From: Deltaproteobacteria bacterium
GTDB lineage: Bacteria > Desulfobacterota > Deferrimicrobia > Deferrimicrobiales > Deferrimicrobiaceae
DNA: 64,000 bases
Reading direction: 5' to 3'
Assembly: GCA_016218975.1 (NCBI GenBank)
Contig: JACRCO010000072.1
Span: 1 to 64,000 of the forward strand
Shown piece after piece: positions 13,729 through 61,034 of this stretch; the first letter of the stretch is position 1; each line of letters starts with the position of its first letter. Under the pieces are notes generated by a model, which was given only the letters and a program-made list of their open reading frames with translations, made no database searches and was not told the origin of the DNA. The position numbers and the translations under genes are program-made.

Positions 13729-14607
13729 ATGGGACGACTGCCGTTGCCACGCAATATCGCCCGGTGGCTGGATTTATCGAATTACAGGGGTAACTTGTCG
13801 CTCCTGTTCGACAGGGGGATGGACGGCTATGGGCAGGAATGGGGGATCCGCAAGGCCGACCCAAAGAAGGGGGAAGAGGAGGGGCGAAAGAAATTCCTCA
13901 CCGATTTTGTCGAATCCTTCTCGAAAGCTCCCCTGCCCGAATACGATGCTTTTATCGCCAGGAGGCATGCTTCCTTTGAATTTGGGGTTAAGGCTGGCGG
14001 TTTTTCCGCGAAAAGAGTGGAACTGAAGTCCGGGAACAGGTTGGTCATCGGGTTGGGACTTCCTCATCCCACCGAGACAGGATTCCTTTTCGACCGCCTC
14101 ACAGGTTGCCCCTACCTACCGGGGTCGAGTGTGAAAGGGATGCTCCGTGCGGCCGCGGGCTTGACGGCTGAGGGGAACCTCGAAGGCGATACTGTTTTCT
14201 GGCGCTACCACCAGCGACGGATATTCGGCTCCGATAAGAGTGATCCTGCGGGTCTCGCGAAAGGGAGGATGGTGTTTTACGATGCCTTTCCCAAGAAATG
14301 GCCGCGTCTTGCGATAGATATCCTGACGCCGCACTATCCTGGGTATTACTCGGGAAAGGGGAACCCTTATCCGGGCGATTGGGAGAGCCCCCGGCCCATA
14401 CCTCTCATCACTATCGAGGCCGGTGCGACGTTCGTCTTTCATATAGAGTCCATCGAACGGGAAGAGAAGGATAGAAAACAAGACGAATTAGCCGTGGAAG
14501 GTTTGCTGACCGTCGCGCTCGATTGGCTCGGGATCGGCGGCAAGAAGTCCGCCGGATACGGGATGATTTGGGAGAAAGTCGAGACTCCTGTTGCGACAGG
14601 AAATTAG
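13729..14607 (+). CDS. cmr6: Type III-B CRISPR RAMP protein Cmr6
   Basis: A 292-aa RAMP subunit that caps the Cmr4 backbone at the crRNA 3' end together with Cmr1. Features: NLSLLFDRGMDGY near residue 22, the RLVIGLGLPHPTETGF strand near 104-119, the YLPGSSVKGMLRAAA signature (about 130-144), and a GIGGKKSAGYGMI glycine-rich loop at the C-terminus. ATG at 13729 follows GGAGGAATAG. It overlaps the small frame at 14591-14755. Confidence 0.92.
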   Translation: MGRLPLPRNIARWLDLSNYRGNLSLLFDRGMDGYGQEWGIRKADPKKGEEEGRKKFLTDFVESFSKAPLPEYDAFIARRHASFEFGVKAGGFSAKRVELKSGNRLVIGLGLPHPTETGFLFDRLTGCPYLPGSSVKGMLRAAAGLTAEGNLEGDTVFWRYHQRRIFGSDKSDPAGLAKGRMVFYDAFPKKWPRLAIDILTPHYPGYYSGKGNPYPGDWESPRPIPLITIEAGATFVFHIESIEREEKDRKQDELAVEGLLTVALDWLGIGGKKSAGYGMIWEKVETPVATGN

Positions 14608-15049: not shown

Positions 15050-15116
15050 GTTCAGACCAATAAATCCGGATCAAGATTGTACCGATGACGGGCTGACGAT
15101 TGAAAAGGAGAGTTGA
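15042..15116 (+). CDS. Possible 24-codon coupling ORF
   Basis: ATG at 15042 overlaps the csx3 stop and its TGA (15114-15116) overlaps the cas6-RT ATG at 15116. It encodes MDKFRPINPDQDCTDDGLT plus five residues. The double overlap suggests that ribosomes could pass from csx3 to cas6-RT through this frame. It may be a chance frame or the stub of a gene. Confidence 0.25.
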   Translation: MDKFRPINPDQDCTDDGLTIEKES

Positions 15117-16993
15117 TGGGGGAGTCGTGGGATGCCCGACTTAAGTTCCAGCGCTACTTGGCCGTGCTGCGCTTCACACGGCCGGCGGTCTTCCACCACT
15201 TTCAACATGGGGCTGTAATTCGGGGTACAATCAGTTCAGCCTTAGGCGTACATTACTTCCCCCATGGACTTATCCCATTTGCCTGCGAATCTGGTCGGGT
15301 CCGATTTGAGGTCGGTGAGAAGTACCGTATCGGCATCACTGTGGTGGGCATGGCAGAAAAAGGGAGGTCCCTACCAGATCGCCTTTCGGAAGGACTTCGC
15401 CGCATCGGCCGGGAAAAGCCATCCCATAGAGGGCCTCTTCCGGTCCTCGGAGGCAACTTCAATCTACTCTCCTTCGAGCCCATACCGCCGCCCGATCTGG
15501 CAAGAGAGCAGGAGGCACTGGCTGGCCGAACTCAGATCACGCTGCGATTCCTGTCACCGTTTCGCCTCGAGCGTCCCCAGGAATTTATCGTCAAGGGAGC
15601 AAAATACCTGAACCAGGAATGCTTTCCACCGCAACAATTCCTTTCCCGCCTTTGGAATCACTTATTCAATCTGGAAAACGGTCGGTACGCGACAATAGAA
15701 GAGATAACTTCCTCCTGCTTACCCGTTCCCGCCGATGTACGCACGGATCCATTGAACCTCCAATGGATAGACATACCGGATGACGGGAAGCCGGCGAGGA
15801 AGCCGGAACAACCGAAGGGCATTACTCTGGGTGGCATTGTCGGCAGGGTTGTCTTTACCGGTTTATCCGATAACTGGAAGGAAGCTATATCTCTGGGGCG
15901 GCATCTCCACGTTGGGAAGAGCACTGCCTTTGGACAAGGGCGGTACATTATCGAGGAGGTTGCTGAAGGAGTTTCCGATCCTTTCCGACCTTCTGCCTCG
16001 TTGCTTGAAAGGGTTGCCGATCCCAACATGCTTGACAAAGCGTTGTCCCATGTCCTGAGCCGTCCCGAGGCCCCTGGAGTGGACAATGTCTCATGGAGTG
16101 ATTTCGCTCTGTCCCGAAACTTCCTCCTCGAAAATCTCTCCCGGGATCTCCTGGAGGGAAGGTATAAGCCTTCTCCTCTCCTTTGGTCCGTTGAACCTAA
16201 TGACAACGGGCGGTTGCATGCTTTTGCCACTCCTACCGTACGCGATCGAGTGGCCCAGCAGGCGGCGTGCGAAGTGTTGGGACCAGCGGTGGAAATTCTA
16301 TTGGAAGACTGCTCCTATGCTTACAGGAAAGGTTTCTCCCGGAAGGGAGCGGCACAGGCTGTTTGGGAAGCGCACGAGGAGGGGTACCGGTTCGTTCTCG
16401 ACGCCGACATCACATCACTTTTCTATTCGGTTGATTGGGAACGCCTCTTCGGCAAACTCGACGCACTTTTTCCATTCGAGCCGTTAATCGGGATCGTCAA
16501 GGAATGGATTCGGGCACCGGTCATCTTTGAGGGGAAGCATATCGAGAGGACCAGAGGGCTTCCGCTGGGGCCGGACATCTCTCCGCTCATAGCGAAACTA
16601 TTTCTAAGCGAATTCGAGGATGAGCTGTTAGGGCGGGATTTCCGTATTGTCCGCCAGGACGACTTCGTCGTCCTATGCAAGGACATGGAAGCAACACGGA
16701 AGGCAAAGAAAGAATCCGAGGAAGTCCTCACGCGGTTGGGACAAAATTTAATAATTGGAAAGAAAGACGCTCGCTCATTGGACAACGAATTCCCTTTCTT
16801 GATCAACAGTATTTGCTGTTCCTCTGCGTTTGTGAACGGCATAGATACTGAAATAATTTCTCAACCGCCATGTGACTCCCTTGTCCCTTCTTCGTTATGG
16901 CTGGCGCAGGTTCCACTACAAACCGTCAAGATCTTGTCGCCTCGGAAGAGCGCTGCAACACGTCGTCTGAAAAAGAAAGAGGATAGTGTTTAA
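15116..16993 (+). CDS. Cas6-reverse transcriptase fusion lacking Cas1
   Basis: A 625-aa fusion. Residues 1-285 form a Cas6-type RAMP endoribonuclease, ending in the glycine-rich LGRHLHVGKSTAFGQGRY loop (about 260-278), which processes the CRISPR transcript. Residues 300-565 are a group-II-intron-like reverse transcriptase: TVRDRVAQQAACEVL, LDADITSLFYSVDWE with catalytic Asp431, RTRGLPLGPDISPLIAKLFL, and the catalytic box VRQDDFVVL (RQDD, 513-516) where YADD is usual; both aspartates are kept. Related Cas6-RT-Cas1 proteins continue into Cas1, but this one ends after about 60 further residues (PSSLWLAQVPLQTVKIL...), 106 bp before the array. No cas1 or cas2 occurs in the window. ATG 15116 follows GGAG by five bases. 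Confidence 0.88.
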   Translation: MGESWDARLKFQRYLAVLRFTRPAVFHHFQHGAVIRGTISSALGVHYFPHGLIPFACESGRVRFEVGEKYRIGITVVGMAEKGRSLPDRLSEGLRRIGREKPSHRGPLPVLGGNFNLLSFEPIPPPDLAREQEALAGRTQITLRFLSPFRLERPQEFIVKGAKYLNQECFPPQQFLSRLWNHLFNLENGRYATIEEITSSCLPVPADVRTDPLNLQWIDIPDDGKPARKPEQPKGITLGGIVGRVVFTGLSDNWKEAISLGRHLHVGKSTAFGQGRYIIEEVAEGVSDPFRPSASLLERVADPNMLDKALSHVLSRPEAPGVDNVSWSDFALSRNFLLENLSRDLLEGRYKPSPLLWSVEPNDNGRLHAFATPTVRDRVAQQAACEVLGPAVEILLEDCSYAYRKGFSRKGAAQAVWEAHEEGYRFVLDADITSLFYSVDWERLFGKLDALFPFEPLIGIVKEWIRAPVIFEGKHIERTRGLPLGPDISPLIAKLFLSEFEDELLGRDFRIVRQDDFVVLCKDMEATRKAKKESEEVLTRLGQNLIIGKKDARSLDNEFPFLINSICCSSAFVNGIDTEIISQPPCDSLVPSSLWLAQVPLQTVKILSPRKSAATRRLKKKEDSV

Positions 16994-25117: not shown

Positions 25118-26062
25118 ATGGAAACGGAAAAGACCGATTTTCAGAAGCATATAGAATCCGGGAAACCGGTCCTCCTTGCGGAATTGTCTCCTCCCAGGGG
25201 AGCCGATCCCGCCCCGTTGCGCGCCGCCGCCGGGCTCTTCGCGGGGAAGGTGCATGCAGTCGGCATCAACGACAACCGCGACGGAGTCCGCATGTCCGCC
25301 CTGGCCGCCGCGTCGCACGTTCTCGCCGAGGGGGTCGAGCCGATCCTTCACATCACGACCCGGGACCGGAACCGCATAGCGCTGGCTTCCGATTGCCTTG
25401 GCGCGCAGGCCCTGGGCGTACGCAACCTGCTCTGCGCCACGGGAACGCACCAGACCCTCGGTCCCTTCCGCCGCGCGAGGAACGTGTTCGACATCGACCC
25501 GATCCAGATGCTCGAAATGATCGAAGGGCTTGCCCGCGATGCATCGCTGTTGGGTGAGGACCGCATCGACGGAGCCGGGCCGTTCTGCCTGGGCGCGAAG
25601 GCCTCGCCGTACGAGGACCCGATGGGGCTGCAGGTCATCAGGCTTGCGAAAGCCGTTGCCGCCGGCGCGAAATTCATCATCACCCAACCGGTATACGACA
25701 TCGAAAGGTTCGAATTCTGGTGGGCGGAGGCGACCCGGCGCGGCCTGCATGAAAAGGTCGCCGTCATTGCGGGAATCCGCCTGCTGGCGAACGCGGATTT
25801 CGCGCGGACATGCGCCGCAAGGCGCCCCGATCCGAAGATCCCCGCCGCGCTTCTCGAGCGCATCACGGCGCCGGGAGACCGGAAAGGTCAGCGCGACGTC
25901 GGGGTGGAGATCGCCCTCGAGACGGTCCAGCGTCTTTCCGGCCTCAAGGGTTTGCGCGGTTTCGAAGTCCGCGTCGACGAGGACACCGACCTCGCCGTCG
26001 AATTCCTGGAGAGATCGGGTCTGGAAATAGACCAGGAATGGAAATCGGCGCAGCGTGCCTGA
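25118..26062 (+). CDS. metF: Methylenetetrahydrofolate reductase MetF
   Basis: A 314-aa TIM-barrel flavoprotein that interconverts 5,10-methylene-THF and 5-methyl-THF. Landmarks: AELSPPRGADPAPL near residue 18, GINDNRDGVRMS near 50, LHITTRDRNRIAL near 78-90 (the FAD-contacting T-x-R-D-x-N-R), LCATGTHQT near 107, and ITQPVYDIERFEFW near 185. Its partner metV ends the same operon, so the enzyme is of the MetFV type found in acetogens and sulfate reducers, fed by iron-sulfur proteins and not by direct NADH. The downstream gene overlaps it by eight bases. It may run in a Wood-Ljungdahl pathway in either direction. Confidence 0.92.
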   Translation: METEKTDFQKHIESGKPVLLAELSPPRGADPAPLRAAAGLFAGKVHAVGINDNRDGVRMSALAAASHVLAEGVEPILHITTRDRNRIALASDCLGAQALGVRNLLCATGTHQTLGPFRRARNVFDIDPIQMLEMIEGLARDASLLGEDRIDGAGPFCLGAKASPYEDPMGLQVIRLAKAVAAGAKFIITQPVYDIERFEFWWAEATRRGLHEKVAVIAGIRLLANADFARTCAARRPDPKIPAALLERITAPGDRKGQRDVGVEIALETVQRLSGLKGLRGFEVRVDEDTDLAVEFLERSGLEIDQEWKSAQRA

Positions 26063-27458
26063 TAAATACCATATCCATACGGAACACGCCCCGCCCCGTT
26101 TCCGGCCGGTGGGGAAGTTCGGCATCGTGGATTGGCGGGAGGACTGCGCGGGCTGCCACAACTGCGTGAAGCGCGCCTGCGCCTACGGGTTTTACAAGGA
26201 CGAGGCCGATACCCTGCACGGCGAGATCGGCTACCTCGATTACATCTACCAGTGCAAGGGCTGCTTAAGCTGTGTGCAGGACTGCACGAAGGGAATCCTG
26301 ACCCGCGTCCTCAATCCCGAATACAACCGCATCGGTGACTCCTACTACACGCCTTCCATCGTCCTTTCCACCTGGTTCCAGGCCGATTCGGGCCGTATCC
26401 CGGTGTCGGGGGCCGGCTACGGCGGGCCGTTCACCGGTTCCGGGTTCGATTCGATGTGGACCGACATGTCGGAGATCGTGCGGCCCACGCGTGACGGCAT
26501 CCACGGACGGGAGTACATAAACACTTCCGTCGACATAGGGCGGAAGAACGACCACCTGGTTTTCGTAAACGGCGAATTGGCGGCATCCCCGCCGTTGCTG
26601 GAGATCCCCCTGCCGGTGATTTTCGGGGCTCTCCCCGCCCGCTGGCTCCGCGGAGCGGCGCCGGAAGCCGTTTCCGGGGCGGCTGCCGAATTGGGATTGA
26701 TGTCGGTCGTGCCCGGCAACCTGGTTCCGCGAGGCCGGTCCGTCGAATCCGAAAAGATCGTCCCCCTGCTGAACACTCCGGAATCCCTTTCCGATCCGGC
26801 ATTCGCGGCCGCGGAAATGATCATCGTCCCGGACCGTCCCGACATCGGCGCCGTGCGGGCCGCGCTTAAAGACAGGAACGGGCGGCAGGTGGTCGCCATC
26901 GCCCTTAACGCCTCGGCGGGCACGGCGGAGCGGGCCGTTGCCCTGACGCGGGAAGGAGCCGAAGTCCTTTTCCTTGTTTTCGATTCCCACGGCCGGGAAA
27001 CCGCTCCAGCCGGGCCGCGACATATGCGCGACGTCCTGCGCGAAGTGCACGTCGCGCTGGTCAAGGACGGGACGCGGGACCGGGTGACGCTTATAGCCTC
27101 TGGGGGGATCGCCCAGGCCGAACATATGGCAAAGGCGATCATCTGCGGAGCGGACCTGGTGACCGTCGACATACCCCTCATGATCGCATTGGAATGCCGC
27201 CTTTGCGGCGAGTGCGACCGGGGAGAGCCATGCCCGGTCGCCTTCGACGAGATCGATCCGAAGTTCGCCGCGCGGCGGATGACCAACCTGATGGGGGCCT
27301 GGCATTCGCAGCTACTTGAGCTGATGGGCGCAATGGGCATGCGGGAGGTGCGACGGATGCGCGGCGAGGTCGGCCGCTGCATGTTCTTCGAGGACCTGGA
27401 GCGGGAAATCTTCGGTCCGTTGTTCGGGACGCGAAAAAAGGAAGGTGCGAGGGCGTGA
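26055..27458 (+). CDS. Ferredoxin-containing glutamate-synthase-like FMN domain protein (divergent paralogue)
   Basis: A 467-aa protein. Two N-terminal [4Fe-4S] motifs (CAGCHNCVKRACAYG, about 33-47; CKGCLSCVQDCTKG, about 71-84) precede a barrel domain related to the FMN domain of glutamate synthase (DSMWTDMSEIVRPTRDGIHG near 136-155, then LIASGGIAQAEHMAKAIICGADLV near 345-370) and a CRLCGECDRGEPCPV cysteine block near 382. It is a diverged paralogue of the next protein and lacks some of the glycine-rich FMN motifs seen there, so it may be structural or electron-transferring, not catalytic. GTG at 26055 overlaps metF by eight bases. Confidence 0.75.
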   Translation: MPDKYHIHTEHAPPRFRPVGKFGIVDWREDCAGCHNCVKRACAYGFYKDEADTLHGEIGYLDYIYQCKGCLSCVQDCTKGILTRVLNPEYNRIGDSYYTPSIVLSTWFQADSGRIPVSGAGYGGPFTGSGFDSMWTDMSEIVRPTRDGIHGREYINTSVDIGRKNDHLVFVNGELAASPPLLEIPLPVIFGALPARWLRGAAPEAVSGAAAELGLMSVVPGNLVPRGRSVESEKIVPLLNTPESLSDPAFAAAEMIIVPDRPDIGAVRAALKDRNGRQVVAIALNASAGTAERAVALTREGAEVLFLVFDSHGRETAPAGPRHMRDVLREVHVALVKDGTRDRVTLIASGGIAQAEHMAKAIICGADLVTVDIPLMIALECRLCGECDRGEPCPVAFDEIDPKFAARRMTNLMGAWHSQLLELMGAMGMREVRRMRGEVGRCMFFEDLEREIFGPLFGTRKKEGARA

Positions 27459-59909: not shown

Positions 59910-60515
59910 ATGCGCGGACGGCGCATTCGTTTCGCCGCCGGACGCCACGGGGGTGCTTCTGTAGATACGCTCACGCTTCTCGGCATTGCGGCTGGGCTGG
60001 CGATGGACGCGCTGGCGGTCGCTATCGCAACGGGAATCGTTCTGGGGAAGGTGTCGGGACGGCAGACGTTCCGCCTTGCCTGGCATTTCGGCCTGTTCCA
60101 GTTCATGATGCCGGTGATCGGCTGGCAGGCGGGGCTTTCCGTCGTCCGCTACTTCTCCGGCTACGGCCATTGGATGGCGTTCGGGCTCCTCGCCTTCATC
60201 GGAGGGAAAATGATCTACGATGCCTTCCGCGAAAACGGAGAGGAGGATACTCCGTCCGACCCGACGCGGGGAGTTTCCCTCGTCGTGCTTTCGGTTGCCA
60301 CGAGCGTGGACGCTCTTGCGGCGGGATTGAGCCTTGGGGTGCTGCGCCTCGAGATCTGGTATCCCGCGGTGGTTATTGGGGTGGTCGCCTGCGTTTTCAC
60401 GGCGGCGGGAATGCATCTCGGAGCGCCGCTGGGACGCAAGTTCGGCCGGAAGATGGAGGTCGCCGGCGGCCTCGTCCTCATCGGGATCGGCATCAGGATC
60501 CTTTTCCGGATGTGA
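59910..60515 (+). CDS. mntP: Manganese efflux pump MntP
   Basis: A 201-aa membrane protein with six predicted helices and two copies of the MntP repeat. The first half has [20 protein letters not shown] with its conserved Asp, and the second has [19 protein letters not shown] with its conserved Asp, the residues implicated in Mn2+ export. The ATG at 59910 adds about 20 residues before the first helix compared with most relatives; no nearer ATG, GTG or TTG is in frame. It lies two genes from a TerC-family protein, also often linked to manganese. Confidence 0.9.
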
Positions 60516-60723
60516 ACAGCGTGATCTCCCACGAATCCTCCCCCCTGTCGAAGCGGATGATGTACCGGTTTCCGTCCGACGCGGCGATCTTGAAATATTC
60601 GTGGTCCTCCCCCCGCCAGCGGTCCAGGACCTCCTCGACTTCGAGCCGCCGCTCCCCCAGGTAGAACGCCCTGGGAGTTTCCCGCGCGGCGTATCCCTCG
60701 TAGCAGAGAACGCGTATTTTCAT
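60493..60723 (-). CDS. Small conserved-type protein of unknown function
   Basis: A 76-aa protein starting MKIRVLCYEGYAARETPRAF and ending [12 protein letters not shown]. It is rich in beta-strand-forming and charged residues (RRLEVEEVLDRWRGEDHEYFKI, in pieces: RRLEVEEVLDRW and DHEYFKIAAS). It overlaps the 3' end of mntP by 23 bp. The same frame extends upstream into the hairpin repeats at 60815-60997, but that part is just translated repeat and is rejected; ATG 60723 is the sensible start. No function is assigned. Confidence 0.7.
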   Translation of the reverse strand: MKIRVLCYEGYAARETPRAFYLGERRLEVEEVLDRWRGEDHEYFKIAASDGNRYIIRFDRGEDSWEITLFTSGKGS

Positions 60724-60814: not shown

Positions 60815-60997
60815 ATGCTGCCATGGAGGGCAGCATGTCGTGATGCACAGGGATGTGCGAATGCCGCGGGCGCATGGATGCGCAGGAGCGGCCGGAGGCC
60901 ATGGATGGCCGGGAGCGACAGCCTGCCATGGAGGGCAGCATGTCGTGATGCACAGGGATGTGCGAATGCCGCGGGCGCATGGATGCGCAGGGGCGGC
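60815..60997 (+). ncRNA. Candidate Csr/Rsm-type sRNA: seven GGA-loop hairpins in a 75-bp tandem repeat
   Basis: This gene-free segment has a 75-bp direct repeat (60818-60892 and 60923-60997, one mismatch) and seven short hairpins that all show GGA in the loop: 60815-60836 (stem ATGCTGCC, loop ATGGAG), 60845-60858 (GCAC, AGGGAT, GTGC), 60870-60883 (GCGC, ATGGAT, GCGC), 60897-60910 (GGCC, ATGGAT, GGCC), 60923-60938 (CTGCC, ATGGAG, GGCAG), 60950-60963 and 60975-60988. ACAGGGATGT in hairpins 2 and 6 matches the core of the known CsrA consensus ACARGGAUGU. CsrB-like RNAs titrate CsrA with such arrays. On the opposite strand the loops would read TCC, so plus is the likely sense. Confidence 0.6.
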
Positions 60998-61034
60998 AAC
61001 CTGCAAATAGCGGTTTTTGTCCCGGAGGGGTTCG

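Follow-up and report, generated by a model that had tools for sequence, protein, structure and literature searches.

Between mntP and terC, the 64,000-nt stretch of DNA analysed here (the window) carries a tight array of hairpins with GGA in their loops, and the question raised by this locus is what such an array is. The earlier note proposed a CsrA-sequestering RNA of the CsrB/RsmZ type or, alternatively, a CsrA-controlled leader of terC. Our analysis points to a different origin, namely that the array very probably arose from a short mobile DNA element, non-autonomous and ~52 bp long, which has two hairpins with CsrA-type GGA loops.

The description of the array itself stands. All seven GGA-loop hairpins are present on the plus strand within 174 nt (60815-60988), each with a perfect Watson-Crick stem, and the consensus core ACAGGGAUGU does occur twice. 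Gene calls likewise confirm the position between mntP and terC, adding a small minus-strand ORF on the mntP side. The features of the locus are the following:

60003-60515, plus strand: mntP (manganese efflux pump), upstream neighbour; PF02659, 2.1e-51
60493-60723, minus strand: small ORF of 76 aa, pointing away from the array, without a Pfam match
60815-60836, plus strand: GGA hairpin 1, 8 bp, AUGGAG loop
60845-60858, plus strand: GGA hairpin 2, AGGGAU loop, GCACAGGGAUGUGC
60870-60883, plus strand: GGA hairpin 3, AUGGAU loop, GCGCAUGGAUGCGC
60897-60910, plus strand: GGA hairpin 4, AUGGAU loop, GGCCAUGGAUGGCC
60923-60938, plus strand: GGA hairpin 5, AUGGAG loop, CUGCCAUGGAGGGCAG
60950-60963, plus strand: GGA hairpin 6, AGGGAU loop
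60975-60988, plus strand: GGA hairpin 7, AUGGAU loop
61035-62030, plus strand: terC, downstream neighbour; PF03741, 3.7e-52; SD-like GGAGG at 61024-61028

Each of the seven hairpins folds by itself. The array also contains a direct repeat of 75 nt (99% identity, spacing 105 nt), which had been taken as a sign of expanding binding sites. The repeat is real, but simple expansion does not describe the array, in which nesting came first: a 52-nt unit (U2) went into another (U1), and a partial 105-bp tandem duplication then yielded hairpins 5-7. Read in this way, the array has five parts:

60815-60840, plus strand: left part of U1, with hairpin A (AUGCUGCC-AUGGAG-GGCAGCAU) and the 5' strand of the outer stem (GUCG)
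60841-60892, plus strand: U2 (52 nt), inside U1; covariance-model match and fold
60893-60921, plus strand: right part of U1, with hairpin B (GGCC-AUGGAU-GGCC), GGGA and the 3' strand of the outer stem, GCGACAG
60923-60945, plus strand: second copy of the left part of U1, truncated, with hairpin CUGCC-AUGGAG-GGCAG; 75-nt direct repeat
60946-60997, plus strand: second copy of U2, with one difference, AGGGGCGGC; covariance-model match of 70.4 bits at 60947-60999

The first copy of U2 comprises hairpin A (GCAC-AGGGAU-GUGC), the linker GAAU and the stem GCCGC/GCGGC around hairpin B (GCGC-AUGGAU-GCGC), with the internal loop GG/AGGA; it matches the covariance model at 60842-60894 with 77.3 bits, a score to be read with its own sequence being part of the model. 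When the two halves of U1 are joined, they agree in 50 of 54 positions with an uninterrupted unit of the same genome (L191:10046-10099, minus strand). In the predicted fold of 60815-60922, GUCGU pairs with the GCGAC region and thereby encloses U2 and hairpin B, and this fold beats shuffled sequences (z -3.2; z -2.8 for the full 232-nt region). Elsewhere in the window, the unit model scores weakly (17.4 bits, E 0.04) at 26998-27044 on the minus strand, where there may be a decayed copy or a mere coincidence.

The unit is not peculiar to this array. Using the array region as a query, blastn hit 13 places in its own genome (12 further matches) and dozens in four genomes of the same family, and covariance model R1 counted 23 copies in the own genome (G000), 21 in G011, 24 in G016, 16 in G022 and 13 in G013. 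Beyond the own family, units are carried by Gammaproteobacteria, Desulfobulbales-type bacteria and Firmicutes, with 57 model copies in a Sedimenticola genome and 56 in a Marinobacterium genome. A sequence-only pattern matched at least 120 stretches among the genomes of 84,980 species, a minority of these being chance matches in genes; among the matches listed are Sedimenticola, Marinobacterium, Nitrincola, Amphritea, Acidiferrobacterales, Desulfobulbaceae, Desulfosporosinus, a Syntrophomonadaceae MAG and others. Carriers from the environment that are in culture include Marinobacterium ramblicola, Sedimenticola hydrogenitrophicus and Desulfosporosinus. The collections of plasmids and annotated phages gave no match to the gammaproteobacterial consensus of the unit. 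In some Gammaproteobacteria (L099, L025, L077, L113, L141) units stand head to tail in tandem with a 51-nt period and up to four copies. Genus g9 has a repeat family of ~300-350 bp with many units inside (L283-L292, L306, L309, L332), whose copies differ by indels of about one unit.

The dispersed unit has a well-defined architecture of ~52 nt: hairpin A (stem of 4-8 bp, ANGGAN loop), a linker ending in T, and the stem GCCGC/GCGGC enclosing hairpin B (ANGGAY loop), with GG(A)/[AG]GGA as the internal loop. A structural search for the two-hairpin unit returned 138 instances from the retrieved loci plus the window but not one from order-1 Markov sequence totalling 978 kb, which excludes chance. 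Supporting this is hairpin A itself, a GGA hairpin being found at 81 of 98 pattern matches and in 12 of 885 control windows, where the pattern left the upstream part unspecified and so avoided circularity. In the alignment of 123 distinct copies (A6), which was fitted to the covariance model, 99% of cells are paired, 255 cells are changed on both sides (63 in shuffles), and the covariation score is 0.445 versus 0.106 in shuffles. Another alignment (A4) gave very high covariation, which is biased by the choice of rows with perfect stems, so that A6 and the unconstrained hairpin A test are the better guides. The compensatory changes that the earlier note had looked to in relatives do exist.

The loops behave differently from the stems. 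In hairpin A the loop has A in 120 of 121 copies, then any base or none, then G, G and A, and mostly T or C at the end; the loop-closing pair is C-G in most copies. The resulting logo, C-A-(N)-GGA-N-G, stays steady while the stems covary strongly, and in the AYGGAY-type loops of the unit the second base is G as frequently as T. Wobble pairs are rare, G-U accounting for ~17 of 1571 cells in the 123-copy alignment, and among one-sided stem changes there is no wobble excess (G-U 9, A-C 12). Such scarcity of wobble is unusual for RNA under selection and fits the decay of DNA insertions.

Evidence that the unit moves comes from filled and empty sites. A palindromic host repeat of ~230 bp in the own genome has two of them: site 1 is filled in L184-L188 and empty in L193/L196, and site 2 is filled in L193/L196 and empty in L184-L188. 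At both sites the junctions are clean, and neither a target duplication nor terminal inverted repeats were seen. A second case is a glutamate-synthase-like gene (GXGXG), which in G016 holds three in-frame variant units of 63 nt and in the G011 orthologue none; the latter reads ...SPAEGSHRMRVANKFG... exactly at the place of the G016 insertion, again with no target duplication visible. The three tandem 63-nt in-frame variants at L294:1809-1996 code for DGHGWPSAGTGRDAHGNTVPA repeats, and the P1 stem of this variant is GCCGGGAC/GTCCCGGC. These filled and empty sites show the unit to be a dispersed mobile repeat that inserts precisely and leaves no visible target duplication. Independent insertions are fewer than copies, since many copies in G000 and G016 ride within larger repeats.

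Some surroundings of the unit deserve separate mention. The ~230-bp host repeat has at least seven copies with imperfect inverted ends (cccgcatttctcacca / tggtgagaaatgcgggtt), located on contigs C7, C19, C71, C80 and C89 (L184-L188) and on C58 and C80 (L193, L196). At L057:2309-2362 a unit directly follows an apparent tRNA gene fragment (antisense ...CAGCATTACGA), as if it lay in tRNA-derived sequence. At L049:453-505 and in L116 the two arms of a short inverted repeat (GGGCGGAT...ATCCGCCC) flank the unit.

Placement is strongly oriented. Among 98 distinct units, 25 begin no more than 4 nt from a same-strand T-run, which in 23 cases has a hairpin before it; the mirror arrangement (T-run in the reverse direction) was found for none of the 98. 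Sense placement directly behind intrinsic terminators is therefore far above expectation. In the own genome, 18 of 21 intergenic loci are downstream of a same-strand gene, a count in which copies within larger repeats are not independent; gene-orientation counts for the wider loci were left out, as crude ORF calling put many units in spurious ORFs. The strand bias could be due either to the way the unit inserts or to selection acting on RNA.

We propose that during movement the strand with the GGA loops would fold as single-stranded DNA (or RNA) and be recognised by an enzyme supplied in trans. A transcribed copy would offer CsrA one or two sites per unit, and insertion could thereby equip coding sequences, leaders or 3' regions with CsrA sites. 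Several points weigh against a mobile element: selection on RNA could instead account for the orientation bias and the CsrA-like loop logo, none of the elements found has an internal gene, many copies within larger repeats are not independent insertions, and no mobilising gene was identified. Of the two candidates for a mobiliser, Y1 transposase (PF01797) and reverse transcriptase (PF00078), neither tracks the unit. A typical DDE-type MITE was considered and rejected, inverted termini and target duplication not being found at the two host-repeat sites. A more specific possibility, less likely than not in our view, is that the unit belongs as a MITE to an IS200/IS605 or REP/RAYT transposase, which would recognise it as a hairpin of single-stranded DNA. 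The lack of a target duplication, the hairpin ends and the strand-specific placement all agree with it, and the rarity of G-U suits DNA more than RNA. However, copy-rich G016 (98% complete) lacks PF01797, many genomes without the element possess it, and the two hairpins have the same orientation rather than being inverted as in BIME. In the second order of bacteria surveyed, PF01797 is uninformative because it is near-ubiquitous there. The window also encodes a Cas6-reverse transcriptase fusion (15113-16993, plus strand; PF10040 and PF00078), which is unrelated to the array; it adjoins a RAMP-superfamily gene (13729-14607) and suggests a type III CRISPR locus with a reverse transcriptase.

What, then, of CsrA? 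The RsmE protein recognises the form (A/U)CANGGANG(U/A). For CsrA, the published consensus reads RUACARGGAUGU and places GGA in the loop of a hairpin (PMC7652899). The loops and closing pair of the unit match the CsrA/RsmE recognition sequence closely. The own genome does encode CsrA, a protein of 74 aa that retains L4 and R44. Its gene, on contig C29 from base 25768, lies between a flagellin-like ORF, which we take to be flgL, and fliW, which directly follows csrA. FliW is a protein antagonist of CsrA, and its presence reportedly anticorrelates with CsrB/C sRNAs (PMC4894983). Within the own family, csrA is present in each of the five copy-rich genomes, while the 16 csrA-less genomes include no copy-rich one (hypergeometric p 0.0013), an association confounded by phylogeny and incomplete genomes. 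The loss of csrA in this family (f1, G000-G023) is patchy: 16 of its 24 genomes lack the gene, among them the same-genus G003 (97% complete). Given the CsrA/RsmE-like loops, the intact CsrA and the co-occurrence with csrA in the own family, binding of transcribed copies by CsrA is plausible. The interpretation in the earlier note is thus supported in part: the loop and closing-pair match, csrA and covariation speak for it, whereas the assignment of the hairpins to a dedicated CsrB/RsmZ-type gene finds no support.

A second order (194 genomes around G062) presents a different picture: csrA is found in 22 of 27 genomes with the element, in 10 of 15 copy-rich ones and in 133 of 194 overall, that is, with no association between csrA and the element in this set. 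Moreover, G153 and G164, which may be incomplete, have no csrA match, yet their 29 and 11 copies all keep the loops intact. CsrA is therefore unlikely to be required for the spread of the unit. These data also bear on the idea that the dispersed units are genome-wide 3'-region CsrA sites kept by selection as a distributed sponge or decoy, which we think rather unlikely. The sense orientation behind genes and terminators, the fixed loops and closing pair over covarying stems, and the own-family association with csrA would all suit it. Against it stand the disappearance of that association in the second order, the copies in csrA-less G153 and G164, and the one-sided changes, which display none of the wobble excess; in addition, copies directly behind terminators should see little transcription.

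Could the array be a CsrA-controlled 5' leader of terC, with CsrA bridging the array hairpins and the GGA-bearing SD sequence? The array is on the terC strand, and a terC transcript from an upstream start would carry all seven loops, with the last one ending ~36 nt upstream of the SD-like GGAGG. In glgC, it is established that such bridging links an upstream hairpin with the SD (PMC7652899). That transcription runs through the array is an assumption, however, and terC was found in 15 relatives, among which the 13 loci scanned for the unit had none. Since at least six relatives retain the order mntP-terC and have no element in the gap, a conserved terC leader does not hold, and the leader reading as such strikes us as improbable. 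The array is a private insertion of its own genome, where it could still affect terC as a side effect.

Least probable of all, to the point that we set it aside, is a CsrB/RsmZ-type sRNA gene giving a CsrA-sequestering transcript of ~200 nt: seven GGA hairpins in so short a span, a loop logo suited to the CsrA/RsmE pattern and a csrA gene with L4 and R44 speak for it, but a consensus scan (sigma-70 only) found no promoter-like or terminator-like site, matches to the Rfam CsrB clan are far under threshold (CsrC 9.2 of 61 bits, RsmV 8.9 of 100), the unit is a dispersed mobile repeat with some copies inside genes, the csrA-fliW arrangement goes with the anticorrelation reported for CsrB/C (PMC4894983), and the array is absent at the locus in the csrA-bearing relative G013.

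Returning to the mobile element, short palindromic repeats and CsrA-type GGA hairpins are each already known, and the literature searched held neither an account of a mobile element conserving the CsrA/RsmE recognition loop nor a description of CsrA together with REP-like or mobile repeats. One might speculate further about a selfish two-hairpin element, spread over several phyla with CsrA-type hairpins as its core, that moves as a structured single strand and adds CsrA sites wherever it is transcribed. Mobile DNA would in that case seed or titrate a global regulon of RNA binding, and CsrA, or a protein like it, might even help the element to move or to be retained; as a whole we consider this scenario a long shot. 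If CsrA binds the unit, new CsrA targets would be readily supplied by mobile DNA. If it does not, clusters of GGA hairpins, the standard cue for CsrB-like RNAs, can flag a mobile repeat. The same caution perhaps extends to the TwoAYGGAY family, whose CsrA binding is a proposal based on matching motifs (PMC4333381).

TwoAYGGAY (RF01731, clan CL00106) is also the nearest known family. An Rfam 15 scan of the window and 18 carrier loci gave nothing of the unit's kind at threshold, TwoAYGGAY reaching 27 bits in L011 (aligned to core positions 46-112) against a gathering score of 43, so that the covariance search with AYGGAY and Csr models came out below threshold for both. The resemblance to the AYGGAY-loop motif noted earlier is nevertheless genuine, as the unit, like TwoAYGGAY, has two adjacent hairpins with AYGGAY-type loops. 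The two stems of TwoAYGGAY are longer, its consensus lacks the GG/AGGA internal loop, and mobility is not described for it in the literature examined. CsrB, CsrC, RsmX, RsmY and RsmZ likewise have hairpins in series whose GGA loops follow the CsrA consensus; they are encoded by dedicated sRNA genes, whereas the unit is a dispersed insertion element found also inside genes. Rickettsia palindromic elements (RPE) are, to our knowledge, confined to Rickettsia. They resemble the unit in being short, palindromic and placed in frame in unrelated genes (PMC10969869), but are ~150 bp long, whereas the unit measures 52-63 bp, occurs across phyla and has fixed GGA loops. Finally, like REP/BIME and other MITEs, the unit is short, dispersed, hairpin-forming, non-autonomous and largely intergenic; unlike them, it is without terminal inverted repeats or a visible target duplication, its hairpins share one orientation, and what it conserves is the sequence of the loops and not that of the stems.
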